59,866 bases of DNA from NCBI GenBank assembly GCA_028875575.1, contig JAPPDF010000005.1, positions 1 through 59,866 of the forward strand. Reading direction: 5' to 3'. The stretch comes from Acidobacteriota bacterium. Its GTDB lineage: Bacteria; Acidobacteriota; Terriglobia; Versatilivoradales; Versatilivoraceae. Below the pieces are notes generated by a model, which searched no databases, was not told the DNA's origin, and was given only the letters and a program-made list of their open reading frames with translations. The translations under genes were made by a program, and so were the position numbers. Below are positions 15,314 through 46,659 of this stretch, piece after piece (positions within the stretch are counted from its first letter, which is position 1; each line of letters begins with the position of its first letter).

Positions 15314-17061
15314 GGGGTAACTCCTTCCAGCGCGTCTTCCAGGCCGGCAAACACTTCCCGCAACCGGCGCAGCACCTCGGGCCTGGCCGACCAGAACCCC
15401 CGTCCGGAGGCTTCCAGCAGCCGGCCCACCAGGGTCTGGGCCGAGTGGGGGTTGAGGCTCTGCAACCGCTCGAGCATCTGCGAGTCCAGCACGAAGGTCT
15501 CGGCCACCTCGTCGTAGATCCAGTCCTCGACGGCATCGGCCGTGGCCGACCACCCGAAGGTGTTGGTCAGTTGGTGTTCGATCTCGGCCACGCCGCTGAA
15601 GCCGTGCTTGAGCATGCCCTCGTACCACTTGGGATTCAGCACCTTGGTGCGGCTCTCCAGTTGCAGCGTTTCCTGAAGGGTGCGAACCCTGGATTGGGGG
15701 GTGAGCGAGTCGGACAGGTAGACCCGGGGCCGCTTGCCGGACCGTTCTTCCACGGCCTTGGTCACCCCTCCCAGGTACTCGAAGTAGTGATCCACGTCGG
15801 AAATGCCCACCTCGGTGCTGTCGATGTTCTGATAGCTGGCTTCCACCCGCGCGAGGGCGTTGTCCAGCAGCGTCTGGGCCTCCTTCCCCTCCATGGGCCG
15901 GCCCCGGGCGTCGCGCCCGTAGGCGAAGCACTTGCGCTTGACAAAGAGGTCTCCCAGCTCCCTGGCGTCCTCCCACTGGCTCTGCAGCACCATGAAGTTG
16001 ACGTTGGTGCCGTAGTTTCCGGCGGCGTTGGAGAAGACGCGGGTAGCCGCTTCCTGGAAGGTGGACCGGTCCCGGGCCATCTGCTGTTGGACGTGCTTGC
16101 GGACGAAGTTCCGCTCCGGGGGCTCCTCCAGGGCGGCCACCCGCTTGACGGCGCGGTCCAGCAACTCCATGGTGGAGGCGAACAGGTCCCGGAAGATGCC
16201 CGAGACGGTCATGACCACGTCGATTCTGGGACGTCCCAGTTGCTCCAGGGGAATGGCCTCCACCTCGGTCACCCGGTTGAGTCCGTCGCGCACCGGCCGC
16301 ACCCCCAGCAGCCAGAGCACCTGGGCCACCGCCTCTCCCTCTTTCTTGATGTTGTCGATGCCCCACAACACCATGGCTATGGACTCGGGGATCCGGTCAG
16401 TCTCCCGCTGGTGGCGTTCCAGCAGGGCCCGGGTCAGGGGCTCGGCCCGGCGGAGGGCCAGGGCCGAGGGGATGGCGTAGGGATTGACGGCATGGGTGTT
16501 CCTGCCGGTGGGCAGAATGGCGGGGTTCTGCAGCAGGTCCCCCCCGGGTCCGGGCGCGAGGTAGTGCCCTCTCAGGGCGGCTACCAGTCCCTCCAGTTCC
16601 CGGTTGGACTGCAGGCGCAGGTTCAGCCTGGACAGGAAGGCCAGGATCTCCAGCGCCGAATCGGCAGGCACCCCCGCACGCTGCTGGAGCCAGAACGCCG
16701 TGTCCGGTTCGGTTTGATCTCCCGGCGCCAGCAAGCGACGGACGGTCTCCCGGGTCAGGCTCTCCACCGACTCCCGCTCCCGCATCCGCTCCCCGGAGGC
16801 CTGGCTCTCCTCCAGCAAACGGTCATAGGGCGGCAATCCCAGTCCCGAGGCGATGAGATCGGTCAGGGCCGGAAGGCCGAGTTCGGGACGGGGAAAGGAG
16901 ACCACCATGGCCAGCAGGTGTACGGTCTCGGCCGCGGCGCCGGGATTCCCAAAGGTGTGCAATCCGGTGGGAATGAGGCGCTGCTCGATTTCGAGCACCC
17001 TTTCGTAGAGGGCCAATACCCGGCGGTCCCGTTCTTCGCTCGTCATCGATCCCTCGTTCAT
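15310..17061 (-). CDS. bchH: Mg-chelatase subunit H, C-terminal half (split BchH)
   Basis: This 583-residue protein begins at the point where the other half stops: ALYERVLEIEQRLIPTGLHTFG is the linker region typical of the middle of BchH. Other family motifs are NPYAIPSALALRRAEP, AMVLWGIDNIKKEG, LEQLGRPRIDVVMTVSGIFRD, NYGTNVNF and VDHYFEYLGG. It carries no N-terminal BchH motifs. The ATG at 17061 has GGGAG about 10 nt upstream and is preferred over the ATG at 17115, which has no ribosome site. Its stop overlaps the start of the N-terminal half. The two chains together give about 1320 residues, the size of an intact BchH, so they probably associate into one subunit (inference). Confidence 0.87.
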   Translation of the reverse strand: MNEGSMTSEERDRRVLALYERVLEIEQRLIPTGLHTFGNPGAAAETVHLLAMVVSFPRPELGLPALTDLIASGLGLPPYDRLLEESQASGERMRERESVESLTRETVRRLLAPGDQTEPDTAFWLQQRAGVPADSALEILAFLSRLNLRLQSNRELEGLVAALRGHYLAPGPGGDLLQNPAILPTGRNTHAVNPYAIPSALALRRAEPLTRALLERHQRETDRIPESIAMVLWGIDNIKKEGEAVAQVLWLLGVRPVRDGLNRVTEVEAIPLEQLGRPRIDVVMTVSGIFRDLFASTMELLDRAVKRVAALEEPPERNFVRKHVQQQMARDRSTFQEAATRVFSNAAGNYGTNVNFMVLQSQWEDARELGDLFVKRKCFAYGRDARGRPMEGKEAQTLLDNALARVEASYQNIDSTEVGISDVDHYFEYLGGVTKAVEERSGKRPRVYLSDSLTPQSRVRTLQETLQLESRTKVLNPKWYEGMLKHGFSGVAEIEHQLTNTFGWSATADAVEDWIYDEVAETFVLDSQMLERLQSLNPHSAQTLVGRLLEASGRGFWSARPEVLRRLREVFAGLEDALEGVTP

Positions 17062-17173
17062 TACCGAACCGCTCCCGGCTGGGGTCGTCCCTCCGCCTGG
17101 CGCAAACACTTTCATCAGCCGACTGCCTGGTGTCCTGTCTCAGAGACAGGGTTGCCATCTCCGAGACAGAACA

Positions 17174-19135
17174 CTAGCCCCGGACGTCCTCGGCCACCGA
17201 CTTCACCGCCTGAAACAGCGCCCCCTGGTCGGTCCAAGGCAGCCGCAGGTAGCGAGCGCCGGTCCAGTCTGCCAGGGTCCGGCCCTCCTCCCCGGCCAGG
17301 AAGGAGGGCCGGGTATCCACCACCACCGCGGTCAAGGCTTCTCGGCGGATCTCGGTTCCCAGCAGCCGCAGTTCCTGCTGCAGGGCGGCCGGGGTCGGCC
17401 CCAGCCCCGAGGGAGCGGGACGAGCCGGACGATTGGCCCGACCGTCGGTGAGAATCAGCAGCACCGGTTGGGGAGAACCGCGCAGTCGGGCCGCACGGGC
17501 CACCCCGAGGGCCTGCACCAGGCCGGCGGCCAGGGGAGTGGCTCCGGAGGCGGGCAGCGCCTCCACCAGGCGCTTGGCCCGCTGCAGGCTGCGGGTGGGT
17601 GGCAGGAGCGTTTCCGCGCCTTCGCCGCCGAAGCGGACCAGCGCCACCTGATCGCGAAAGACGTAGGCCTGCTGGAGGAGCCGGGCCATGGCCCCCTTGG
17701 CCTGGGCCATGCGGTTCACGGCCATACTACCACTGGCGTCCACCACGAAGACAAAGAGGATCCCCGCCTTGCCGCGAAAACGGCGGAAGCGCAGGTCCGA
17801 GGCCCGAATGATCATAGGGCCGCCCGCCCCGCCCCGCGGTCCGCGCCCGGCGGTGGGACGCCGATCCTTTTCGTCGGCGGAGGCCGCGGCTGCCCTCCGC
17901 CGGCGCCAGGACTGCCAGGGAGCCGCCGCCCGCAGGGTTGCAGCCACGGCAATGGAACGCCTGCGGTCCGGCCTCGGGTCGTTGCGAAAGGCCCTGCCCG
18001 GCGAACCGGGAAGCCTCTGGGTTCTGGGCCCCGTCCGACGGCCGGCGGCGCGGGCAGCCGGGAGCCCGCCGAACATCTCGTCGGGAAACTCTCCGGGGAG
18101 GGGGTCTACCGGCATGGGGGACTCATCCTCGGGTATTGAGCGGTCTTCGGTTCGGGCGCCAGGGTCGGAGTCCGGGGTTTCGACGGCCCCATCGTCCTCG
18201 GGTTGAGCCTGCTCATGCCGAGGCCCGGAGCGGGGCTCCTCATCCACCGGCACAGCACGAGGCCACAGGACCAGCTGGGCGGCCATCTCCAGATCCTCCT
18301 CGGATACCCGGCTGCGTCCGCACAGGGCTGCATGGGCCCGGGCCGCCAGCATGGCGAACAGGTCCAGCCGGTGTCCTTCCATCCCCAGTCGAGCGGCGGC
18401 AGAGATCAGTCGGCGCAGGTCGTCTTCGGGGAAGCTGACCTGGCTCAGAAGGCACCGGGCCTGCCGGATGGATTCGGCCGCGGCCCGGAGTGGGTCGGTT
18501 CCCGCGGGCTCGGCAGCGGCGGCGCCGGGTTCCCGACCCCGCTTGCTCTGTTCAAAACCCTGCAGGAGTTCCAGCACCTGTCGCCGCTGATCCAGGTCGG
18601 CAGTAGAGGCGCCGTCCACCAGCAGTCCCACCCGGGCCTGAATGATGGCCGCAGGATGGCCTTCAGCGGGGTCGTAGGTTCCCACCAGACAGAACCTGGC
18701 GAGGTGGGAGGTGCTCACTCCCTCCCGCTCGACCCTGACCCGGCCTGAATCGAGCGCCGAGGCGATGGCGCGCAGGCAGGATTCCGGCAGCAGATTGATG
18801 TGATCGACCTGAAGCACCCCGCGGTCGGCCCGGGCCAGCAGTCCCTCGCGGTAGCGCCAACGCGGGCCGGCAGCCGCCGGCTCGGGACCCAGACCTCCCA
18901 GCAGGCGATCCTCGCCCACTCCCAGGGGAGCCCTCACCAGCGCCGCTTCCCGGCCCTCGGGCTTCAATGCTTCCAGAAGGGCGGCAAAGGCCTTCACCAG
19001 CCTGCGCTTACCCGTTCCGGAAGGCGAAGCCATCAGCAGGCCGCCCAGACGAGGTTCCACGGCCAGCAACAGAAAGGCCTGCTTCGCCAGCGGTTGACCC
19101 ACCACGGAAGCGAAAGGATCAACGGGAGCGGTCAT
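17174..19135 (-). CDS. bchD: Mg-chelatase subunit D (AAA-like plus von Willebrand A domain)
   Basis: The 653-residue protein has an N-terminal AAA-like domain whose Walker A is degraded (SPSGTGKRR, with Arg where Ser or Thr is needed) and whose Walker B reads VLQVDHINLL, lacking the Glu. This is the usual state of BchD, which scaffolds the BchI ring without hydrolysing ATP. A charged, Pro/Arg-rich linker (about residues 330-440) follows. The C-terminal vWA domain has a MIDAS motif DASGSM (about residue 470) and LILTDGRANR. It lies between bchI and the two bchH parts on the same strand, 112 bp from the latter. The vWA domain is expected to contact subunit H. Confidence 0.9.
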   Translation of the reverse strand: MTAPVDPFASVVGQPLAKQAFLLLAVEPRLGGLLMASPSGTGKRRLVKAFAALLEALKPEGREAALVRAPLGVGEDRLLGGLGPEPAAAGPRWRYREGLLARADRGVLQVDHINLLPESCLRAIASALDSGRVRVEREGVSTSHLARFCLVGTYDPAEGHPAAIIQARVGLLVDGASTADLDQRRQVLELLQGFEQSKRGREPGAAAAEPAGTDPLRAAAESIRQARCLLSQVSFPEDDLRRLISAAARLGMEGHRLDLFAMLAARAHAALCGRSRVSEEDLEMAAQLVLWPRAVPVDEEPRSGPRHEQAQPEDDGAVETPDSDPGARTEDRSIPEDESPMPVDPLPGEFPDEMFGGLPAARAAGRRTGPRTQRLPGSPGRAFRNDPRPDRRRSIAVAATLRAAAPWQSWRRRRAAAASADEKDRRPTAGRGPRGGAGGPMIIRASDLRFRRFRGKAGILFVFVVDASGSMAVNRMAQAKGAMARLLQQAYVFRDQVALVRFGGEGAETLLPPTRSLQRAKRLVEALPASGATPLAAGLVQALGVARAARLRGSPQPVLLILTDGRANRPARPAPSGLGPTPAALQQELRLLGTEIRREALTAVVVDTRPSFLAGEEGRTLADWTGARYLRLPWTDQGALFQAVKSVAEDVRG

Positions 19136-19226
19136 TGAAATCCGTCGAAGAGTTGTCCATAAAGGACGGGAAACTGTAGAACCAACCTGGCGTGGTCACC
19201 GGCCGCAATCTGGTGGCGCGGCGTTC

Positions 19227-19405
19227 ACCCCCACCGCATCAGCCTTCGCCATCCGGCGCTGCTTTGCGGCGCCGCGTATGCCCCCCACCGCATCAGCCTT
19301 CGCCTGCGGCTCGGCTTCTGCGACTCCCCCCTTGAGGGAGAGTCGGTGAGACAAGGGCGCCAGCCCGCCGTCGAACCGGAGGGGGGCAAACGCGGCGTCC
19401 CGTGA
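19227..19405. repeat. Dispersed intergenic repeat, family B, most complete copy
   Basis: The bchI-bchD gap (19136-19429) holds both arms of this family. The left arm has two partial units of CCCCACCGCATCAGCCTTCG (19231 and 19277) and then GGCTCGGCTTCTGCGACTC. The right arm is GAGAGTCGGTGAGACAAGGG followed by GGGGGGCAAACGCGGCGTCC. The left arm recurs at 1-72 and 59712-59785, and the right arm recurs inverted at 34199-34270. Lying inside the chelatase cluster, it may mean bchI and bchD are transcribed separately. Confidence 0.75.
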
Positions 19406-19429
19406 GTGACGACCAGTGGTCCTAATCCC

Positions 19430-20623
19430 CTAACCGCCGGCCGCCTGGGCATCCTTGGGCTCCAGCGGAAACACCCGGTCCAGAGCCTGCTCGATCCGGG
19501 CAGCCGATTCCAGCGGCTCCAGGGGATCTTTCTGCAGCCGGTGGCGCAGTGACATGACGGCCACCCGCCGGATATCCTCGGGCAGAACGACCTCCCTTCC
19601 CTGCCAGGCGGCCAGGGCGCGGGAGGCGCGATAGAGGGTCAACTCCCCCCGGTGGCCGGCCACTTCCAGCCGCAGACAGAGCTCGGCCATGCCCCGCAGC
19701 AACCCGGGATCCACACCGACCCGGGAGATTCGGGAAAGGGCCGCCTTCAGCTTGTGCCGCAACTCCTCCTGGAGCAGTTCCGCCTGGGCGCAGAACCCGG
19801 CGGGATCCTGTTCGAAGCCTTGACGTCTTCGCACGATCTCGATGCGCTCATCCAGGTCATCCAGGGTCCTGACCTCCACAAACAGGCCGAAGCGATCCAG
19901 CAACTGGGGTCGCAACTCCCCTTCCTCGGGATTGCCCGATCCCACCAGCACGAAGCGGGCGGCGTGGCTCACCGAGAGCCCCTCCCGCTCCACCTGGTTG
20001 CGACCGCTGGCGGCTGCATCCAGCAGGAGGTCCACCAGGAAGTCTTCGAGCAGATTGACCTCGTCGATGTAGAGAAAACCCTGATGGGCCTGGGCCAGCA
20101 GGCCCGGCTGGAACACCTTGGCCCCCCGGTTCAAGGCCTGCTCGATGTCGAGACTGCCGCAGACCCGGTCTTCGGTAGCCCCCAGGGGCAGATCGACCAC
20201 CGGGACGGCAAAGGTCTCCCGGGGCAGGCGCTTGCCCTTCCCCCGGCGTTGGTGGCACTCCCGGCAAAGATCCCGAACCCGATTCGGATCGCAGTTGAAG
20301 GGGCAGTCCTTCACCCGGACTTTGGAAGGCAAGAGGTCGGCCAGAGCTCTCACTGCCGTGGACTTGGCGGTTCCCCGGTGCCCCATGACCACCACGCCTC
20401 CAATGTGGGAGTCGAGGACCGTCAGCAGAAGGGCCAGCTTCATGTCCTCCTGGCCGACGATGGCCGAAAAGGGGTAGACGGAGGGCGCAGTTCCACGGGA
20501 CGCCTTGGTTCTCCGGGGCTTGGTCGCGCGGGGTTCGGGCAGGCTCACGTGTCGAGGGGTGTGACCGGGCCGTCTGGCTCCAGGTGCTTGCGACGGTCCG
20601 GGCCGTCCGGGAGGAATCTTCAA
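19430..20623 (-). CDS. bchI: Mg-chelatase ATPase subunit I
   Basis: This is an AAA+ ATPase of BchI/ChlI type: PFSAIVGQEDMKLALLL at the start of the core, Walker A GHRGTAKST, the BchI-specific insertion with CPFNCDP and LCRECH, Walker B LYIDEVNLL, sensor region VGSGNPEEGELRPQLLDRFG, and a helical lid. It forms the ring motor that powers metal insertion with BchD and BchH. The core starts at about residue 49, giving an unusually long, basic, Pro-rich N-terminus. The first possible start is TTG at 20623 and a GTG exists at 20548; neither has a clear ribosome site, so the true start is uncertain. It is the first gene of the chelatase cluster. Confidence 0.9.
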   Translation of the reverse strand: MKIPPGRPGPSQAPGARRPGHTPRHVSLPEPRATKPRRTKASRGTAPSVYPFSAIVGQEDMKLALLLTVLDSHIGGVVVMGHRGTAKSTAVRALADLLPSKVRVKDCPFNCDPNRVRDLCRECHQRRGKGKRLPRETFAVPVVDLPLGATEDRVCGSLDIEQALNRGAKVFQPGLLAQAHQGFLYIDEVNLLEDFLVDLLLDAAASGRNQVEREGLSVSHAARFVLVGSGNPEEGELRPQLLDRFGLFVEVRTLDDLDERIEIVRRRQGFEQDPAGFCAQAELLQEELRHKLKAALSRISRVGVDPGLLRGMAELCLRLEVAGHRGELTLYRASRALAAWQGREVVLPEDIRRVAVMSLRHRLQKDPLEPLESAARIEQALDRVFPLEPKDAQAAGG

Positions 20624-28899: not shown

Positions 28900-29480
28900 C
28901 TGCAGACGAGGATTGCTGTCGCCGCATTCGCGGCCCAACTCCCGTAAGCGAGGTTTGCCCACGGCTCGACTGGAATCTCCGGCTTGCCGCCGGGGGGAAT
29001 ATTCCAATTAACAAGCACGTTTCCCCTTGCAGTGTCGTGAGTTGGGTGAGAGCTGCGAAGCTGCGGTTGACGTGGTTATCCACGGAAGCGTTTACTACAG
29101 GCCATCCTTATAGAGCAGCGAAGCTGCGGCTCAGGGTAGCCCCGGGTGGAAGCCCGGGGGCGTTCCGGTTTTGCGCCAACTTAGCCGCGAAGGCGGCGAA
29201 TAGAAAGCGCCCTCCCGAAACGCACGGCTTTTCCAGAACGACGCCGCCCACCTAGCCGCGAAGGCGGCGATTTAGAAGCACCCGTCCCGAAACGCAATGT
29301 CTCTCCAAAAGGACGCTACCCGCGCCCCGGGCGTCAGCCCCGGGGTCGTATGGGTTTTGCGTTAACCTAGCCGCGAAGGCGGCGAATAGAGAGCACCCGT
29401 CCCGAAACGCACGGCTTTTCCGGAACGACGCCGCCCACGTAGCCGCGTATGCGGCGATTTAGAAGCGCCATCCCGGCCCG
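28900..29480 (+). repeat. Dispersed repeat family A, copy 2, with degenerate tail units
   Basis: This copy matches 12720-13060: GATTGCTGTCGCCGCATTCG near 28911, AGAGCTGCGAAGCTGCGGTT near 29049, GGCCATCCTTATAGAGCAGC near 29101, and a CCCGGG hairpin near 29140. Its tail unit (GCCGCGAAGGCGGCGAATAG ... CCCGAAACGCACGGCTTTTCC) is repeated about every 70-115 bp, near 29184, 29254, 29369 and 29439. The gap 28663-30004 contains no credible gene; its short open frames are repeat-encoded. Confidence 0.8.
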
Positions 29481-37731: not shown

Positions 37732-38167
37732 TTTCAGGAATTTGGCAGGTCTATCGGCCAAGACGTGATCGAAGAGGCGAACCGGCTGGGGCGGCGCACA
37801 TTCGGTCCAGCCCGTTACTTCTGCTGCTCTACCAACTCGCCCCGGGTGAATCCTTCAAACAGCCCTTCCAGCCGGGCCATGCGTTCCCGGAGATCGGCGA
37901 CGTCTCCACGGACATCGGCCACATCTCCTCGGACATTGGCGACGTCCTCTCGGACATGTTGAATTTCCAGTCTGAACTCCTGTCGGATATCGGATGAGAC
38001 CTTCCATCCGAGGCTGACCAATGCCACGCCGAGAATGCCGATGGCAATCAACTCCGCGCTGAGAATCATTGCTGATGCTCCTTCCACTTCGACGAGCCCG
38101 CCGAGAGGGAGAACAGACCAGGCAAGGGGTTCATTTGCTGACGGATCACTCGGTTAGTGTACCACGC
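37732..38167 (-). repeat. Direct repeat DR-A, left flank of the 8 kb island
   Basis: This 436 bp block recurs in the same orientation at 46164-46622. Shared edges are TTTCAGG.ATTTGGCAGGTCT on one side and GTTAGTGTACCACGC on the other. Sequence outside these edges is unrelated. Each copy contains one small coiled-coil gene with its own ribosome site and upstream sequence. The two copies bracket the CobN/ExbB-like genes. Confidence 0.88.
37815..38069 (-). CDS. Small membrane-anchored coiled-coil protein (DR-A copy)
   Basis: The 84-residue protein has one N-terminal transmembrane helix (AELIAIGILGVALVSLGW) and a long amphipathic helix of seven-residue units (VREDVANVRGDVADVRGDVADLRERMARLEGLF), a heptad coiled coil. 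The ATG at 38069 has GGAAGGAG about 8 nt upstream and is preferred over an in-frame start at 38087. Its sister gene at 46249-46524 is nearly identical but has one more heptad. Its function is unknown; such proteins oligomerise at the inner membrane. Confidence 0.75.
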   Translation of the reverse strand: MILSAELIAIGILGVALVSLGWKVSSDIRQEFRLEIQHVREDVANVRGDVADVRGDVADLRERMARLEGLFEGFTRGELVEQQK

Positions 38168-39090
38168 AAGACAGGCTTGAAAGAACAGAGCCCGCGGCGG
38201 GACCTGCGGTCCCTGAGAGGGAAATCGGTGCAGGAGGCGTTCCGGGGTGTTCTGGTATGCCAGGGGCCTGGAAATCGCAGCCTGCCCGGCAAGGCTCGCG
38301 GATTCCGGGTGCAGGACACCGTCGAACGCCATGGCGGCTTCGATGCCGTCATGGAGAAGGTCGTCCAACAGGAACAGGAAAACCCGGCCTCCAACGGCCG
38401 CGAAATGATCGACGATTTCCGCCTCTGGGGGTCAAGGCGGTGTCGATAGACTAACCCGGTGTTCCTCTTCCGGGAGGATTTCCGGCGCTGCACCGACAGC
38501 GCGGGCTATTCCCTCAACCTGATGGTGTTCACCGGTCTTCCGGAAATGGGTTCGGAAGTTAGTTGGTTTACCTCGATCGAAGAACTCCCGGATCTGGACA
38601 AGGCACTGGCCCGATGGTTGAGCCGGGCGTAGTGTTGCGTTTTCAAATGCGACCCTCGTTCCTGTTGAAGATCCGCGTCTTGTTGTTCAGGTGTATAGGT
38701 ACCGTGGCGACGACCGGTTTACCCGCGCGCTTTGCGTGGATAACGCCGCACGCGGATCCTATGGATGCATTCCACATGCTGACGAGTAATCCATCTGCAG
38801 ATTCGAATCCGAGGCGATTTGTTTCGACGATTGTGCGAGGGTTTGTTGCTTATTGGGCCGTATTAGGATTGATTTGCAGCTCCTGGTTCAACTTGCAGAT
38901 AGAGGGGAATCGATCTGAGGGCATTAGTTGGCCCGAGACGATGGCCTTCTCGAAGGGGTAGACCAGTTGCCGGTAAAGCGAGAGGCCCGTTCGAACCGGC
39001 CGCCCACTGGTACAGCCACGCCATGATGCCGGGTCCGGTAACTTTCAAATGCCTGTGAATCAACCATAACCCGGACCGACTGAGAGGCCA
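38168..39090. other. Island left part: no intact gene, possible remnants
   Basis: No convincing complete gene is seen in these 923 bp. The plus-strand frame at about 38290-38449 reads FDAVMEKVVQQEQENPASNGREMIDDFRLWG, and a separate frame at 38459-38632 continues with plausible protein sequence, so a decayed gene is possible. From about 38640 the sequence becomes less GC-rich and the frames lose protein character. Decay at an island edge is common after insertion. Confidence 0.4.
38459..38632 (+). pseudogene. Short protein-like fragment (57 aa)
   Basis: Read from the GTG at 38459, the frame gives NLMVFTGLPEMGSEVSW and ends FTSIEELPDLDKALARWLSRA, which looks like the C-terminal end of a globular protein. 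No start region or upstream domain is joined to it in frame. I do not recognise the family. It could be the tail of a gene truncated when the island formed, or a chance frame. Confidence 0.3.
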
Positions 39091-39384: not shown

Positions 39385-39573
39385 CTATCTAGGCTTGACA
39401 CAGCGCTTGCTGAAAGGTAAACCCCTACTGTGATACGGTTTTCTGTAGGGACAGGATCGCGCGAATCCAAGCGTCCGCCACGTCTGCCGTCGGGAATCCA
39501 ACTCACAGCAGCAGTGAATCGTTAGAATGGACCGGGGCGGCGGAGGCACGCGCCGAAACGTGGAGGTTCTCAC

Positions 39574-40146
39574 TTGCTTATCCACACCGTAGCACAACTG
39601 TGTGGCTTGGCCGCCGTGGTCTTCGCCACCGCATCGCGGGGCCGTCGCGGGGTTGCCGCACTCTCTGCGGGCTTCTTGTGCGGGCTTGGATTGCCGGTTC
39701 CATCTCCCGGATGGACAGGCGCGCTTGTCGCGGCCATGGCAGTGCTGGTGCTCATTGATTCGCGCTCCCCGACGACCGCGCTCGCAGGCCCGCTGGCGTC
39801 CGGGCTGACTGGTGGAATGTGCGCACAGATGCTGGTCGGCCAAGGGATGGCAACGTGGCTGGCCTGGCCGCTCGCGGCGGGCTTTGTCGCGGCATCGGCC
39901 TTTGCGTCCCAGCGCAACCCTCGATTCGCTCGACGGGAAATCCGCGAGGACGCGCTGGCAGCGCTCGCAGCGCTGGGCTTGGCCGTCGCGGCTGCGCCAA
40001 GCGTGGCAGCGGGTTGGCGCACGGCGGGAGTAATGAACCTTGCGGCCAATGACTTGGCTCGACCGGGGCCGAACTCGGGTCTACTATTGGGCGTCGCGGC
40101 TGTCGTTGTGCTCGGAGGCCTGCATAGGTTGCGGAGGCGTGCATGA
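39574..40146 (+). CDS. Multi-pass membrane protein of the CobN/ExbB-like locus (HmuT position)
   Basis: This 190-residue Ala/Leu/Gly-rich protein has six or seven hydrophobic spans (for example GLAAVVFATAS, GALVAAMAVLVLID, WLAWPLAAGFVAASAF and LLLGVAAVVVLGGL) with short loops. The start is a TTG at 39574 supported by GGAGG 9 nt upstream. Its stop overlaps the ATG of the ExbB-like gene (ATGA), so the two are translationally coupled. It holds the place of HmuT in Bacteroidota hmuSTUV loci (from memory). A role as a channel partner or small-molecule permease is a guess. Confidence 0.78.
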   Translation: MLIHTVAQLCGLAAVVFATASRGRRGVAALSAGFLCGLGLPVPSPGWTGALVAAMAVLVLIDSRSPTTALAGPLASGLTGGMCAQMLVGQGMATWLAWPLAAGFVAASAFASQRNPRFARREIREDALAALAALGLAVAAAPSVAAGWRTAGVMNLAANDLARPGPNSGLLLGVAAVVVLGGLHRLRRRA

Positions 40147-40790
40147 ACTTTCTCGGAATTCTTGAGAACGGCCTGTTCGCCTTGGCCCAAGTGCTCCGCC
40201 TACCCGTGATCGCCATGCTCTGGGTTGCGGTTGGCACCGTATTCTTCATGACCGGTGCGTGTGTCATGGATTGCTTGGCGCGGCGGCGAGAGCGCGACGG
40301 CTTCGATCTCAGCGCGTGGCTCGATGCAGGTCCGCTGCTTGGCATCGATGGCGCGCGGCTGGAGGCATTGCCGACGCCGCTTCGCGGGATGCTGCGCGAT
40401 GTCGAGACTGAGCGAAAGAGGCTGGGGCTTGGCGACGGCGGCTTGGAGCACCTCGTTCTCGAACGGGAGGAGCGAGTGCGCCGCACACTGAACCGGTCGC
40501 GCTTGCTGGTCAGGGTTGGTCCGAGCTTGGGCTTGCTGGGCACCCTCATCCCGATGGGGGCGGCCTTGGCGTCGCTGACGGCCGGCAACCTCGAGGCGAT
40601 GGCGGGACAAATGGTCGTCGCCTTCACCACCACCATCGTCGGTCTCGCGACGGGGACGGTAGCCTACGTCATTCAGAGCGTGCGCCAAAGATGGGTTAGC
40701 GAGACCGTGCGCGAGCAGCGATTCCTAGCCGAGCGTCTCGCCGCGGAACTGACACACGATGCGCGCGGCACCCCCGCGCCGGAGGATTAG
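40143..40790 (+). CDS. hmuU: MotA/TolQ/ExbB-family proton channel (HmuU-like)
   Basis: The 215-residue protein has the ExbB/TolQ topology: a first helix (IAMLWVAVGTVFFMTGACVM), a large cytoplasmic loop with basic helices, then two helices. The second carries the signature RVGPSLGLLGTLIPMG (about residues 122-137) and the third AFTTTIVGLATGTVAYVIQ with its conserved Thr. With an ExbD-like partner such proteins form the proton-driven motor that energises periplasmic or outer-membrane work. It overlaps the preceding gene by 4 bp and is followed after one base by the DUF2149 gene. It is distinct from the ExbB at 53244-53951. Confidence 0.87.
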   Translation: MNFLGILENGLFALAQVLRLPVIAMLWVAVGTVFFMTGACVMDCLARRRERDGFDLSAWLDAGPLLGIDGARLEALPTPLRGMLRDVETERKRLGLGDGGLEHLVLEREERVRRTLNRSRLLVRVGPSLGLLGTLIPMGAALASLTAGNLEAMAGQMVVAFTTTIVGLATGTVAYVIQSVRQRWVSETVREQRFLAERLAAELTHDARGTPAPED

Positions 40791-40791
40791 G

Positions 40792-41124
40792 ATGGCACGT
40801 TTCCTGCACCTGAATTCAACAGCCGACGCGGAGGCCGAGGACCCTCTCTCGGGAATTACGAACATCTTCGACATCTCGGTGGTCTTCATCGTCGGCCTGA
40901 TGATGACTCTCTTCTCCGTGTATCGTATCGGCGACCTCGTCGATCCGGAAAGCCAGGTGACGCTGGTCAAGACCAACGCAAACGGCTTGCGAGAGATCAT
41001 CGTCAAGCGCGGCACCGAGATTACCGCCTACGAGCTCACAGGCGAGACACTCGGCGGGCAGGGCGAGCGCCTCGGCACCGCCTATCGGCTGGCCGACGGG
41101 CAGATCATCTACGTCCCGGACTGA
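40792..41124 (+). CDS. hmuV: DUF2149 protein, ExbD/TolR-like motor partner (HmuV-like)
   Basis: This 110-residue protein has a short cytoplasmic N-terminus, one transmembrane helix (NIFDISVVFIVGLMMTLFSVY, about 24-44) with a membrane Asp at residue 27, and a periplasmic beta-rich tail. This layout and the Asp copy ExbD/TolR, whose Asp carries protons in the ExbB ring, although the tail is shorter and unlike ExbD. The ATG at 40792 has GGAGG 6 nt upstream inside the end of the previous gene. It matches the DUF2149 family, which I recall next to CobN-like genes in hmu loci and methanogens. It probably completes the motor. Confidence 0.83.
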   Translation: MARFLHLNSTADAEAEDPLSGITNIFDISVVFIVGLMMTLFSVYRIGDLVDPESQVTLVKTNANGLREIIVKRGTEITAYELTGETLGGQGERLGTAYRLADGQIIYVPD

Positions 41125-41168
41125 GCGGATCGCTGCTTGGACCGACCGTCTGTACTGGAACCATCAAG

Positions 41169-41202
41169 CGAAGCCGACGGCACCGTAGCGGTGCCAGCTT
41201 CG
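41169..41202. terminator. Strong extended hairpin between convergent hmuV-like and hmuS-like genes
   Basis: A perfect inner stem GGCACCG/CGGTGCC closes a three-base TAG loop and is extended by an outer CGAAGC/GCTTCG stem. It lies 45 bp after the hmuV-like stop, in the 300 bp gap (41125-41424) between convergent genes. There is no T-run, so it may be a Rho-assisted or bidirectional end, or an mRNA-stabilising structure. Confidence 0.6.
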
Positions 41203-41424
41203 GGTGGGTCGGCAGTACCGATTGCTCGACTCCGGGTGATGGAATTGGCTTCGATCCAGGTTCTGTGCTCTCCCGCCGTCACCCGGCCCGTCCGACGTCC
41301 GCAGCGCGAGGCCAGCACTCAAGCGACGCCCCCGAGGGACAGGGAGCATCAACCTGACGGTCCGTCCCTCGGAACTGAAGGCCGCGGACGGCCGCTTTCG
41401 GTCCGGCCGGTTGCCTGTGGTGGC

Positions 41425-44400
41425 TCATGATCGCCCCCTGTGAAGCCGCCGCTGCCTGCGCCAAGCGGCGAGCAGCCCCAGGAGCGGAAGGCCCACCCAA
41501 AGCGGAGACCATTCATCGGGCTCCGGACTTGCTGCCGGCAGGTTCGGGGCCGGACCGCTCGCGCTTGCAGTCTCCTGCATGCGATAGCCCCTGATGCCGG
41601 TCAGCGCCGGTGCGGCTGTCCCCGCCTCGTTGCGGCGGACGAACTCCTCTACTGCAGCCGCTGCTTCCTCGATGTCGACACCGAGCGCCTCCTGCATCGC
41701 CTCTCGGTACGCCTGAAGAGCGGGACCGGGAATGTTCAGCGCCGCGCCTCGCTCCAGCACGTAGCGCAAGAGTCTCGGATTGCCGCAAGTGTGGGATGCA
41801 CAGCCGACGCCGTGCCTGGCGACGCTCTCGACATGTTCATGGAGCAAGCGCTCGGCTGTCGCGTCATCGGCCGCCCAATAGTCCTTGCGGATCGTCTCAA
41901 CCATCCGGCCGGTGATGTCTTGGTACGCGTGGGGCGAATGCTCCTCAAAGAAGGTCTTCAGGTCCAGTCCGTGCCTGTCCTCGACGTACACGGCGAATGA
42001 CTCGTTCCACATCGCATCGTCGACTGTCTCGGGCACAGCGGCGTCCCAGCCCCACAGGTACTCGACGAACGCGCGCATCTCGCCGGCACCGGCGTAGCCC
42101 TCGCTCTGCATCCCTTCGATCCAAGTGGGGTTGACGTAGCGAGTCCGGAACTCCGAGCCGATGAACTCGTGGATCCCGGTCATCTCGGGTCGGCTGGGGT
42201 CGCGGGTGTTGGCGACGACCATCTGCGGGCTCTCACCGTCAATGCTCCTGACGGCGGCCGCGAGCCCGCCCATGTACATGAAGAAATCGTCGTTGTCCAA
42301 TGCGCCGTAGAGCATCGTGGAGCTACTGTGCACCACCTTGGCGGTGCCGGAGAGCGCCAGGCGAAACGCATCCTCCATCGGTTCGCCCCAAAACCCGTTG
42401 CCGTAGCCGTGCCCCATCTTCGACAAGTACTCGTCCGCCATTGGCCGGTCGCTGTCCCAAGTGCCGCTCGCAGCGGCGATGCGCGATGTGTTCAAATTGA
42501 AGGTGCCGGGCGGCTCCTGGAAGATGCGGACGCCGGCGCGCCGGTCGGCTTCCTCGTCCGCGTAACCGCGCCCGATCAGCGCCGCCTTCGTCGCCAGGTA
42601 GTGGCGCCGCACGTAGTTGTCCGCCTCCTCCATAACCTTGACCCGCTGGACCGCCTCGTCCATCAGCCGGGTCACATTGCTGAACATTCCCGTCGCGGTC
42701 GAGGCGATGACGACGTCCACGCGGGGCCGGCCGAGCTGGCTCGACGGAACGACATCCACTCCTACCACCTTCCCGCGGGCATCCCAGACCGGGCGCGTTC
42801 CGAGCAAGTGAAAGATCTGCGATTCCAGAATTCCTTCGTGCCGCAGAGTTTCGTCGGCCCAGATCACGAAAGACACCTTCTCGGGATAGCCTCCGTGCTC
42901 TGCGACATGGTCTGCCAGCATCTGCTCGGCCAAGTCGACGCCGAGCTTCCAGGCAGCCGGCTTCGGCACCTTCTCAGGGTCGATGCCGTAGAAGTTCTTG
43001 CCGGTAGGATAGGAATCCGGGTTGCGGATCGGCTCCCCGCCGCCGCCCACGGGAATGTAACCGCCGTCGAGAGCACGCACCAAGTGATCGAGTTCCCGAG
43101 GCCCGGACTCGACGATGCGCCGCTCCATCTCCGACGCCCGGACCGTGGCGTCGTTCGGCAGGAGGCTCCGATCCACGGAGACAATCGCCTCGACCGTGCT
43201 CGCTCGCATCTCCGGCTCCGGGACCCGACCGAAGGCATGCAGTCCGTACGGCATGTTCTGCCCCCGCAGCTCGATCAGGTAGTCCTCGATGGCATGAACC
43301 GACTCGTGCGGGATCTCCGGGCCGCTTCCGAGGTCGATTCCGAGGTCCTTGACCATTCCCAGGTCCGTCGCCTGGCGCCGGATCTGATCGGCGTACGCCT
43401 CGGTCATTTGCACGCTCTTGTGGACGTTGGTGTGATAGTCATCGACGCTCTCTCCGAGGGCGGCCAGCGCGGGCAGCAACTCGCTGGTTCTGAACGGCGG
43501 CACCATGTGATCCACCAGAGCCGCCATGCCGCGGCGACGCGCTACCAGCCCTTCGCCCACGACGTCTACGTTGTACACGTACAGGTTGGGCAGGTCGCCG
43601 ATCAGTGCATCCGGAGCGTCGTTCTCCGAGAGACCCAGGTCCTTGCCTTCAAGCCACTCGAGCGTCCCGTGCGTGCCGAGGTGAATCAACGCGTCCGCGC
43701 CGAACCCGGCGGGCTGATCCGCTTTCAGCCAAGAATAGGCGGCAACGTACTGGTGGTGCGGCGCGAGAGCCGTCGCGTGGTACAGCTTCTCAGCGTCCTC
43801 GGACCAACCCCGCGCGGGCTGCGGCATTAAGACGATGTTGCCGTAGCGCACCGCCGGTATGACGAAGGCACCGTCCCGCACCATCACACCGGAGTCCGCA
43901 GGGTCGCCCCAGTCGGCTGCAACCTTGGCGCGGAAGGCCGGCGGGTAACCGCTAAACCAACGCAAGTAATCGCTCAACGGCACCCGAGCCGCCCCACCCT
44001 TCTCGATCAGCGCATCCAGTTCGCCCGGCGCGTACCCTGCGACATTGCGGGCGCGGTCCGAGATCGCCGCCATCACCGCTCCCGGCGACAGATCGACCCC
44101 GGAGCCTCCGACATCGTAGCCGGCCATGAGCATCCGCCGCAGGATGTTCGAGATCGACTCCGCGACATTCAGGTAGCTGGCTCCGATGGTGGCTTTGCCC
44201 GGAGGGTAGTTGTAAAAGAGCAGCGCGACGCGCTTGTTGGCGTTGGGCGTCGCCGCCAGCGACGCATAGGCAATGGCCCGCTGGACTGCCGTCGTCACGC
44301 GGGCAGCCAGCGGCTGGGAGACTACGACAGCCATCCCGGTGCCCGGGTCTGTACGGCGCTCCCGGCTGCCGACCACGGTCGGCGCCACCAGCCCGGACAG

Positions 44401-45438
44401 TTCCGGCACGAATACTTGAAAGGTCCCTTCGAACAACGACAGCCCCTGCGGTGAGGCACGCCACTCGGCCTCGCTTCGCCCGTAGAGCGAAATCAGACTG
44501 AGCACCGGTATGCCCAACTGGCCGAGTGATTCGCTCGCCTTCGGGTCGGCGAAGCGGAACATAAACGTCAGCGCGACGTCGGCCCGCGCGACGCCGTCGG
44601 CTCCGCGCAGCAAGGAATTGAAAGTCTCCCCTGCCGGATAACCGAAGACCGGAATTGCTTCGGCTCCCTGCCGCTCGATTTCGGCGATCACCGAGTCAAT
44701 GAGAACGGTGTCGCCATGGTGGAGTTTCGCCCCGTAGAAACCGATCGCGACGCGCGGTGCTCCGGGACGGAGTTTGCCCGCACGCCGCCGCCAGCGGTCG
44801 AACGCCTCCCAGGTGGCGAAGGCGCGGCCGCTCGACACTCCCCGGTCTTCGTTCTCCGCCCCGGGATGGTAGTAGCCAGCCTCAAGGCTCGGCCGCGGGT
44901 CGGCCGCAGAGAGATCCGGAATACCCGCCGCGGAAAGAACGTGCTTGAGCAGCCCCGCCTGGTTTGCGACGCCAGCGTGGCGCCAGAACTCGCGGGCGCG
45001 CTCGTCCCATGTCGCACCAAGCGCGACGTAGTGCTCGCGGGGCAGCAGCCCGTCGTCAACGGGCAGAACCAAGCCGTTCGCGGCGACACGGCCAATGAGG
45101 TCGACGCCGTGCTCCTCGTCGAACCGTTCCAGCGCCAGGTGATCCAGAGTGTTGACGATCAGCACATCGCTCGCCAGAACATCCTCGGGATCGACCTCGT
45201 CGAGCAGCGACTCAGTCAGCAGCGTCACCGCGACGCGGTCGCGGAGATCTGGACGCTCGTTGACCACCGCCCGCCAGGCGCTCAGTATGCCCGGCACGGT
45301 GGCATCGAGCGTGACATAACAGATCCGAACAGTTTGTGCGCGAGCTGGGCTGGAGGCCGCGCCGACCGCCAACCAAAGGAGCGAGACAGCTATGCCGCCT
45401 ATGAGACAGCGGATGCAGGTCGATGGAGAACGGGCCAA
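41425..45438 (-). CDS. hmuS: Exported, membrane-anchored CobN-type chelatase (HmuS-like haem dechelatase candidate)
   Basis: This 1337-residue class I chelatase large subunit resembles CobN. Unlike cytosolic CobN it starts with a signal peptide (about 1-35, LIGGIAVSLLWLAVGAASS, then a PARAQ cleavage region). It ends with a hydrophobic anchor and basic tail (LWVGLPLLGLLAAWRRQRR), so the body should lie in the periplasm. CobN motifs include YNYPPGKATIGASYLNVAESI, HLGTHGTLEWLEGKDLGLS (about residue 585, conserved His and Glu), SQLGRPRVDVVIASTATGMF and FFMYMGGLAAAV. The likely start is a TTG at 45438; the GGAG two bases before it is too close, so the start is uncertain. The neighbouring channel genes match hmuTUV. 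In Bacteroides, HmuS is reported to take iron out of haem; metal insertion is the alternative. Confidence 0.88.
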   Translation of the reverse strand: MARSPSTCIRCLIGGIAVSLLWLAVGAASSPARAQTVRICYVTLDATVPGILSAWRAVVNERPDLRDRVAVTLLTESLLDEVDPEDVLASDVLIVNTLDHLALERFDEEHGVDLIGRVAANGLVLPVDDGLLPREHYVALGATWDERAREFWRHAGVANQAGLLKHVLSAAGIPDLSAADPRPSLEAGYYHPGAENEDRGVSSGRAFATWEAFDRWRRRAGKLRPGAPRVAIGFYGAKLHHGDTVLIDSVIAEIERQGAEAIPVFGYPAGETFNSLLRGADGVARADVALTFMFRFADPKASESLGQLGIPVLSLISLYGRSEAEWRASPQGLSLFEGTFQVFVPELSGLVAPTVVGSRERRTDPGTGMAVVVSQPLAARVTTAVQRAIAYASLAATPNANKRVALLFYNYPPGKATIGASYLNVAESISNILRRMLMAGYDVGGSGVDLSPGAVMAAISDRARNVAGYAPGELDALIEKGGAARVPLSDYLRWFSGYPPAFRAKVAADWGDPADSGVMVRDGAFVIPAVRYGNIVLMPQPARGWSEDAEKLYHATALAPHHQYVAAYSWLKADQPAGFGADALIHLGTHGTLEWLEGKDLGLSENDAPDALIGDLPNLYVYNVDVVGEGLVARRRGMAALVDHMVPPFRTSELLPALAALGESVDDYHTNVHKSVQMTEAYADQIRRQATDLGMVKDLGIDLGSGPEIPHESVHAIEDYLIELRGQNMPYGLHAFGRVPEPEMRASTVEAIVSVDRSLLPNDATVRASEMERRIVESGPRELDHLVRALDGGYIPVGGGGEPIRNPDSYPTGKNFYGIDPEKVPKPAAWKLGVDLAEQMLADHVAEHGGYPEKVSFVIWADETLRHEGILESQIFHLLGTRPVWDARGKVVGVDVVPSSQLGRPRVDVVIASTATGMFSNVTRLMDEAVQRVKVMEEADNYVRRHYLATKAALIGRGYADEEADRRAGVRIFQEPPGTFNLNTSRIAAASGTWDSDRPMADEYLSKMGHGYGNGFWGEPMEDAFRLALSGTAKVVHSSSTMLYGALDNDDFFMYMGGLAAAVRSIDGESPQMVVANTRDPSRPEMTGIHEFIGSEFRTRYVNPTWIEGMQSEGYAGAGEMRAFVEYLWGWDAAVPETVDDAMWNESFAVYVEDRHGLDLKTFFEEHSPHAYQDITGRMVETIRKDYWAADDATAERLLHEHVESVARHGVGCASHTCGNPRLLRYVLERGAALNIPGPALQAYREAMQEALGVDIEEAAAAVEEFVRRNEAGTAAPALTGIRGYRMQETASASGPAPNLPAASPEPDEWSPLWVGLPLLGLLAAWRRQRRLHRGRS

Positions 45439-46163
45439 AGCTCCTACCCCTGTGCCTCCCGATGCAGGACGTTATAGTGTGCAGCCAGGGCGGCAATCAG
45501 GCAGGCTTAGCCTACTGCCCGTGCCTCCAACCCCGGGCGGACCCTGGAAGGCATGTGGACTCCGCGTCGACTCGCGGCCGTCAAGGAAGCGGCAGCATTG
45601 CACGGACATCCGCAGCACATGACTGCTCAATGATATTGGAGGCTTTCGAGCCCTTTGCAAGATTCTCGAGGCAACGGGTCTTTGGTGAGATGCCAGGCTG
45701 GGTAGAAACAAGTTCACTCGCCGTTAAATGATGGAAATTACCGAACAAGCCATCTTGGCAACGGAAAGCGGACTTGTCGCTGAAGAACACCGTATCACAT
45801 TATAGGTTCACCTTCCAGTAAGCGGTGTTCCCGTCGCGGGTCGAGTGAGGGGGCCCCATTTATTGGTCCACTCAGTCAGTGAAATTCTGACGTTCGTTGG
45901 ACCCAAAGGGCATTGAATTGCTGGGGGCGAACGATCACAAGATCTGTCCGCCAACGTCCTGGAAGGTCCAGTGGATTCCTTTTCAATAGGAGGGATTCAA
46001 TGAGGGAACCGCAACTGGTTTATCCTTAGTAAGCCTATTATAATTAGCAGTTTAAATTTGACAGGTTTCAGGTCGTGCAGCCGCTTCCCAAATTGGTTTT
46101 CCTGTGCACCCAGTCGATCGATGTTTCTTGAATCACATCGATGCACAGGAAATACAGGACTTG
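45439..46163. other. Island right part: upstream region of the CobN-type gene
   Basis: These 725 bp hold no credible gene. They should contain the promoter of the chelatase gene. I looked on the minus strand for a cobalamin riboswitch (GCCACTG element and B12 box) and saw none, nor a clear Fur box. Around 45650 is a copy of the TTTGCAA repeat. Around 46020-46070 the sequence is very AT-rich (CCTATTATAATTAGCAG), unlike the rest of the window. Confidence 0.45.
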
Positions 46164-46622
46164 ATTTTCAGGGATTTGGCAGGTCTATCTGCCAGGGCAT
46201 GATCGATGGGGCGAACCGGCCGGGACAATAGGCGTTAAAGGCAGTCCGTTACTTTTTTTGCTCTGCCAACTCGCCCCGGGTGAATCCTTCAAACAGCCCT
46301 TCCAGCCGGGCCATGCGTTCCCGGAGATCGGCGACGTCTCCACGGAGATCGGACACATCCCCTCGGACACGGGCCACGTCCCCACGGACATGGGCCACGT
46401 CCTCTCGAACATGTTGAATTTCCAGCCTGAACTCCTGTCGGATATCGGATGAGACCTTCCATCCGAAGCTGACCAAGGCCACGCAGAAAATGCCGATGGC
46501 AATCAACTCCGCGCTGATAATCATTGCTGATGCTCCTTCCACTCTGACGAACCTGCCGAGAGGGAGATCAGGCAAGGCAAGGGGTTCATGTGCTGACGGA
46601 TCACCCCGTTAGTGTACCACGC
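46164..46622 (-). repeat. Direct repeat DR-B, right flank of the 8 kb island
   Basis: This 459 bp block corresponds to 37732-38167 in the same orientation, with the same two edges. It differs by scattered substitutions, extra bases near 46225-46250 and one added 21 bp heptad unit in the coiled-coil gene. The divergence shows that the duplication is not recent, or that the copies came from related elements. Confidence 0.88.
46249..46524 (-). CDS. Small membrane-anchored coiled-coil protein (DR-B copy)
   Basis: This 91-residue paralogue of the protein at 37815-38069 has the same N-terminal helix (AELIAIGIFCVALVSFGW) and heptad region (VREDVAHVRGDVARVRGDVSDLRGDVADLRERM), but with one more seven-residue unit. 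The ATG at 46524 has GGAAGGAG upstream, and that region is shared between the copies. Substitutions between the copies largely keep the protein sequence, which suggests both are expressed. Function unknown. Confidence 0.75.
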   Translation of the reverse strand: MIISAELIAIGIFCVALVSFGWKVSSDIRQEFRLEIQHVREDVAHVRGDVARVRGDVSDLRGDVADLRERMARLEGLFEGFTRGELAEQKK

Positions 46623-46659
46623 TGGCCGGTCGTGAAATGGGTGGATTCCTTTGGCTCCT

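Follow-up and report, generated by a model that had tools for sequence, protein, structure and literature searches.

HmuS, from the hmuYRSTUV loci of Bacteroidota, is an exported, anchored class-I chelatase encoded with an ExbB-like U protein and a DUF2149 V protein (PDB 9d26; PMC12583661). Its marks are H538 in the motif HFG(T/A)HG, which is found superfamily-wide, H1209 and E1212 in LSLDHxxEFMGG, the haem-binding residues Met79 and His254, and a Met-rich insert; the same study notes that most bacterial and archaeal members of the superfamily are not reliably annotatable (PMC12583661). The CobN-like protein BtuS goes back to a proposal of Rodionov et al. 2003 (cited in PMC6460266), and Bacteroides fragilis has been noted to possess riboswitch-led Hmu-like operons that lack HmuY (PMC10100974). 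A plasmid of Trichlorobacter (Geobacter) lovleyi carries genes for a TonB receptor, a DUF2162 protein, ExbB, a DUF2149 protein and CobN in one operon (NC_010815; PMC3403914), and PA1922-PA1925 of Pseudomonas aeruginosa encode a TonB receptor, a CobN-like protein, a channel protein and a DUF2149 protein (PMC4542158, PMC9431628). Here we analyse a related four-gene module, S, T, U and V, in a stretch of 59,866 nucleotides (nt) from an Acidobacteriota bacterium (contig JAPPDF010000005.1 of assembly GCA_028875575.1), referred to below as the window. We consider that it probably encodes not a haem de-chelatase but a periplasmic class-I chelatase machine that is powered by the proton-motive force and belongs to the corrinoid-linked BtuS type.

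An earlier reading of the window (the original prediction) had called the module perhaps undescribed. For the kind of system this was too strong, given that BtuS proteins, riboswitch-led Hmu-like operons and CobN/ExbB/DUF2149 clusters have been published (PMC6460266, PMC10100974, PMC3403914, PMC9431628). What is added here is a clade on the corrinoid-linked side of the family, with an Asp/Met active site, a T family of its own, hosts devoid of CbiC and a specificity column that can be tested.

Chelatase S and its membrane partners

The PF02514 profile spans the whole of S (987 bits, against a gathering score of 24.5), whereas the cut-offs of the NCBIfam CobN equivalogs are not reached (804 bits versus 1248, and 580 versus 822). 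The best match of S in the PDB is the HmuS structure 9d26 (E = 6.7e-135). The N terminus shows a hydrophobic segment (residues 11-29) and a cleavage-like site between ARA and Q, and the C terminus a weak hydrophobic stretch (about residues 1308-1326) followed by arginines; the C-terminal hydropathy peak is only 0.85 in S, compared with 1.1-1.9 in most relatives. The exported CobN-type protein of the original prediction is thereby borne out, and S is, as far as its sequence tells, an exported, membrane-anchored class-I chelatase of the CobN/BchH/HmuS superfamily. The likeness of the gene set to hmuSTUV also holds. Pfam confirms the families of S, U and V, and a membrane protein occupies the T slot; with E-values from 1e-12 to 1e-296 for S, U and V, the module is not a chance assembly.

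The catalytic loop of S reads HLGTHG, and its His (H590 region) corresponds to HmuS H538. Alignments show that H538, H534 and E577 of HmuS are all retained in S, that the superfamily catalytic His and the HxGTHG loop are kept throughout the clade to which S belongs (the window clade), and that S, with its C-terminal CASHTCGN, has in common with HmuS a Cys-x4-Cys region near the C terminus. Unlike HmuS, S has no LSLDHxxEFMGG motif with H1209 and E1212 and carries instead the variant LDNDDFFMYMGG, with Asp and Met (D/M) at these positions. The haem ligands Met79 and His254 are likewise absent, Leu and Phe standing in their places; the Met79 column lies in a divergent head domain, has Met in some relatives and is unreliable, while the His254 column is Phe, Leu or Met across the window clade. 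The Met-rich insert of HmuS domain IV is also missing, HmuS residues 700-888 having no counterpart and the alignment of S (residues 733-754) resuming at HmuS 889.

The pair at HmuS 1209/1212 varies across the superfamily. It is H/E in HmuS of Bacteroides, Prevotella, Aureibacter and one acidobacterium, in the window's own BchH-like protein and at loci L061, L069, L072, L075, L151 and L152. It is D/Q in eight cytosolic-type CobN proteins, D/A in the one haloarchaeal CobN, D/M in the window clade and D/D in a riboswitch-led gammaproteobacterial group. Because it shares with cytosolic CobN an Asp at the 1209 position, S resembles corrin-type and not porphyrin-type enzymes at that site, and the 1209/1212 column may set the ring type.

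Trees were calculated for 40 and then 56 proteins, the window clade contributing 13 rows. Both group S with exported motor-linked chelatases (Shimodaira-Hasegawa-like approximate likelihood ratio test support of 100 in the 40-protein tree and 94 in the 56-protein tree) and place cytosolic CobN and the window's BchH-like protein apart from it. Cytosolic CobN and BchH/ChlH share the Pfam family and the catalytic His loop with S, but they lack the export signal and anchor, work with AAA+ ATPase partners and occupy a separate branch. The proteins nearest to the window clade are those of Trichlorobacter and Runella, and the HmuS group forms a branch of its own. Trichlorobacter CobN is 39-40% identical to S and lies near it in the tree; its host makes corrinoids, its T slot holds a DUF2162 protein and its active site is D/Q; PA1922-PA1925 were compared by their published description and are not among the tree rows. 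In the 56-protein tree the riboswitch-led gammaproteobacterial group (L154-L164) forms a long branch near cytosolic CobN, so that the exported forms perhaps do not make up a single clade. In these searches the window clade was found only in Acidobacteriota and some Gammaproteobacteria. In one acidobacterium (G258) a true HmuS operon (L077) coexists with a module of the window type (L078), which makes it unlikely that the two are redundant.

Components of an ExbB/ExbD-type motor are present. U, a PF01618 channel protein, has three hydrophobic segments by hydropathy, and V has a single membrane helix with Asp27 (numbered in the 110-residue form) and, in a low-confidence model, a short β-rich periplasmic part. 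Asp27 is nearly invariant among 28 homologues, in agreement with the membrane Asp noticed earlier. The model of V is poor (predicted local distance difference test (pLDDT) 61.8, predicted template modelling score 0.26), and a PDB profile search with V gave weak, unrelated matches only. T forms its own family, with C10, P142 and G147-W148 invariant in a 12-member alignment, and its AlphaFold model shows 7 helices (pLDDT 79.5). Profile searches with T gave no match in the PDB and none to DUF2162; comparison with the HmuT profile returned a probability of 2.8%, a value that for such short membrane proteins leaves room for shared descent. T was also considered as a BtuM- or NicO-like permease and this was rejected, as the models showed only background likeness to half of a major facilitator superfamily fold (best Z 8.7, 3.8 Å, 140 residues).

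Corrinoid-linked context in relatives and hosts

A co-directional T-U-V-S operon is found at L002-L007, L009, L078, L079 and L081, in Acidobacteriota and Gammaproteobacteria, and L080 has the same operon with T undetected. The convergent layout that had been taken as a mark of a divergent system is real at the window but does not extend to relatives outside its genus, being confined to that genus and one near-identical fragment (L001, L011-L013). A 97% identical locus (L001) supports the proposed host phylum, Acidobacteriota. DUF2149 scored over the cut-off in 6 of 297 acidobacterial and 20 of 369 gammaproteobacterial genomes, and at every such locus opened in the two surveys U and V accompany a CobN-type gene. 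The motor was thus rightly expected to travel with CobN. Neither of the findings that would have refuted the original prediction was made: S does not branch with the cytosolic cobaltochelatases, and U-V were not found without S.

The receptors adjoining the modules of L002, L005, L006, L007 and L009 have their best NCBIfam score with the BtuB model TIGR01779, none of them over the cut-off, and those of L005 and L007 are preceded by a cobalamin riboswitch. The receptors of L002 and L078 share 54% identity with a receptor of genome G035 that is under riboswitch control. That of L081, for which haem-receptor and BtuB models score about equally, shares 40% identity with the receptor that a riboswitch controls in the window genome itself. 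No match to HmuY was obtained among the neighbour proteins searched. Outside the window clade, the Trichlorobacter operon is headed by two cobalamin riboswitches, ExbB-DUF2149-CobN of a Comamonadaceae plasmid is preceded by one, and another lies by L070. In the riboswitch-led gammaproteobacterial group, a cobalamin riboswitch stands before TonB receptor-CobN-U-V, or directly before CobN-U-V, at 7 of 9 scanned loci; one of its operons (L160) ends with the corrinoid adenosyltransferase BtuR, and three of its genomes encode CbiC on the contig of the operon, at a distance of about 10 kb or less. The window clade thus resembles the BtuS family and the riboswitch-led Hmu-like operons in having an exported CobN-like protein that is separate from both CobN and ChlH, and in the TonB receptor and, in some relatives, the cobalamin riboswitch that accompany it; it differs from them in its own T and its D/M active site, and the window locus differs in having no riboswitch.

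The corrin-ring enzyme CbiC was detected in 0 of 15 genomes tested, that is, 14 carriers of the module and the genus mate G001, and in 7 of 14 controls. Cobalamin riboswitches are present in all of the 17 genomes searched except G353 (which holds L009), including 13 of the 14 carriers tested for CbiC. One contig of the window genome bears riboswitch-BtuDCF and another riboswitch-receptor-CobT-CobS-...-CobQ. The genome also has three methylmalonyl-CoA-mutase-family genes; a MetH activation domain was not found in it. By its gene content, the window organism is a corrinoid salvager. A role of the module as the sole corrinoid importer is ruled out by the presence of BtuCDF in the same genome.

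Proposed mechanism and competing explanations

In the mechanism that we favour, S would, after export, be held by its anchor at the periplasmic side of the inner membrane. U and V would make up a stator of the ExbB/ExbD kind, and the part of it that projects into the periplasm would drive S with proton flow. This unit would replace the cytosolic AAA+ partners (ChlI/D, CobS/T), which are out of the reach of S, and T would assist in the inner membrane, perhaps as a permease. A corrinoid or similar ring would reach the periplasm through a BtuB-like TonB receptor, which in most relatives is encoded beside the module; in the window genome a riboswitch-controlled receptor lies elsewhere. The ring would be held in the cleft of S around HLGTHG and the opposing Asp, and the motor would power a metal-removing, metal-inserting or ring-releasing step, after which BtuFCD would import the product. 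A corrinoid is fairly likely as the substrate class of S, while the step itself may be metal removal, metal insertion or a hand-over in which no metal is exchanged. The more specific proposal of an envelope proton-motive chelatase that repairs, strips or exchanges the metal of corrinoids before import, in bacteria devoid of corrin-ring synthesis, is put forward tentatively.

Several observations weigh against this mechanism. Removal of cobalt from corrinoids is chemically hard and makes little sense in a B12 salvager, and import as such can do without the module, since BtuCDF is present. A scan of the window locus showed no cobalamin riboswitch, and the window genes scanned near the module include no TonB receptor, the absence of HmuY and HmuR having been noted from the start; within the window clade a riboswitch stands beside the module at two loci only. 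The receptor at L004 scores best with a haem-receptor model, BtuB coming fourth. Exported CobN-type proteins with no U and V nearby occur at L070, L073 and L074, where receptors adjoin the CobN genes, and also at L054. Riboswitches accompany 0 of 7 H-type and 12 of 33 D-type scanned loci (Fisher p 0.08, the loci not being independent), a split that is suggestive and for which significance is not claimed. Related D-type systems also seem tied to other metals: at L053, on a plasmid of Runella slithyformis, TonB receptor-T-U-V-S lies inside a hyp hydrogenase-maturation cluster, and PA1922-1925 are regulated by Zur (PMC9431628, PMC4542158). The points that weigh most are the conventional BtuFCD of the window genome, the missing riboswitch at the window locus, and these sister systems connected with zinc or, judged by gene neighbourhood, with nickel.

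Other explanations were weighed as well. The corrinoid-linked machine minus its chemistry, in which S is a motor-driven periplasmic carrier that passes corrinoids from the receptor to the inner membrane with no metal exchange, is possible, if doubtful: it suits a salvager, for which metal removal is pointless, and HmuS has itself been suggested to mediate transfer from HmuR on to HmuTUV (PMC13227078), but a pure carrier would not need the catalytic His and the HxGTHG loop that the window clade keeps. It is unlikely that the module scavenges a metal other than iron (Co, Ni or Zn), with S freeing the metal from a receptor-delivered chelate and T or another permease importing it. The L053 module, whose T-slot protein is weakly NicO-like (E = 1.4e-4, below the cut-off), suggests nickel supply, an exported CobN of Cupriavidus adjoins CobW and a cytosolic CobN, and PA1922-1925 belong to the Zur regulon (PMC9431628). 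Against this, CbiC is absent from the window-clade genomes tested, so that free cobalt would be of little obvious use, the T of the window clade matches no metal permease, and the adjoining receptors are mostly BtuB-like.

The haem reading of the original prediction, in which a divergent HmuS system would take the iron out of haem, appears quite improbable. The S-U-V gene set and export are as in HmuS systems, HmuS is the best PDB match of S and shares its C-terminal Cys-x4-Cys, and HmuS activity has been shown in B. theta (PMC12583661). However, hmuYRSTUV differs from the window in having HmuY and in its layout, and S has neither the H1209/E1212 pair nor Met79 and His254 nor a Met-rich insert. 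The profile of T does not match that of HmuT, most receptors of relatives look like BtuB, some of these relatives have cobalamin riboswitches, and both types of system occur in G258.

If the corrinoid-linked machine is correct, a membrane motor in place of an AAA+ ATPase would be another way to power class-I chelatase chemistry, which bears on the energy source of these enzymes where ATP is absent, and it would place an envelope motor in vitamin B12 salvage, for which the textbook route is BtuB/BtuFCD only. The 1209/1212 pair would then tell the ring type superfamily-wide, H/E for porphyrin and D with Q, M or D for corrin. Lying opposite the catalytic His, this pair offers a testable rule by which exported chelatases of the haem and corrin types may be told apart, in a family where 'cobaltochelatase CobN' is the default name of many genes.

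Gene layout, flanking sequences and neighbouring genes

Coordinates of the module and its flanking elements in the window
Feature	Position	Strand	Description
T slot	39574..40146	+	Multi-pass inner-membrane protein, 190 residues, TTG start, ribosome site GGAGG; no Pfam match (P0002)
U	40143..40790	+	MotA/TolQ/ExbB-family proton channel protein, 215 residues; PF01618, E = 1.8e-12 (P0003)
V	40792..41124	+	DUF2149 protein, 110 residues; PF09919, E = 3.4e-26 (P0004)
S	41425..45438	-	CobN/BchH/HmuS superfamily (CobN-Mg_chel), 1337 residues; PF02514, E = 1.3e-296 (P0001)
61-nt element	39400..39460	+	Upstream of T-U-V; 77% complementary to inverted copy
Inverted copy of 61-nt element	45768..45828	-	Upstream of S; contains TATAAT

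T, U and V are three overlapping or abutting genes (window 39574-41124, forward strand), U overlapping T by 4 nt, and a plausible ribosome site precedes each of the four starts. S starts with TTG behind a GGAG-type site, and the start of V is placed at 40792, which follows a GGAGGA site, and not at 40759.

The module lies in a 6.4-kb block that is 96.3% identical to L001 and both ends of which coincide with the 61-nt inverted pair. The neighbours outside the block differ between the window genome and L001, and the other genes compared between these two genomes are 89-93% identical. The module is present in two of the seven genomes of the window's genus. The 61-nt pair was also considered as the ends of a known transposon, but those seven genomes have no further copies of it and the block contains no transposase. 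Either the 61-nt pair is a shared promoter or operator, or the block moves as a unit. The pair contains a CTTGCTGGAAGGT-like sequence, which we take to recall MerR-family metal operators. Direct repeats of about 450 nt, 86-91% identical, also flank the module (37732-38174 and 46166-46629), each with a small coiled-coil-like open reading frame.

The neighbours of L081 include a periplasmic binding protein and a PepSY_TM protein. PepSY_TM proteins adjoin window-type modules in three acidobacteria (L003, 12106-13710; L079, 13253-14815; L081, 6828-8015) and are perhaps a reductase partner. At L155 (genome G609, 9347-9477) a TonB receptor controlled by a thiamine pyrophosphate riboswitch comes after an operon for exported CobN, U and V.

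Elsewhere in the window, a Mg-chelatase H-type protein is encoded on the reverse strand as two genes in reversed order (13100-15334 and 15310-17115), the C-terminal half upstream of the N-terminal half, which starts with DUF3479; BchD- and BchI-like genes (17174-20623) lie upstream of them. The same split layout occurs in the genus and family mates G001, G003, G004, G006 and G008. No BchL over the cut-off was found in the genomes with this layout, so that the split chelatase has no obvious chlorophyll pathway, and a chlorophyll link of the nearby BchI/D/H genes was rejected on this ground. An Acido-Lenti-1 small RNA is predicted at 29114-29159 on the reverse strand of the window, with a score of 38.7 bits, just above the gathering score.

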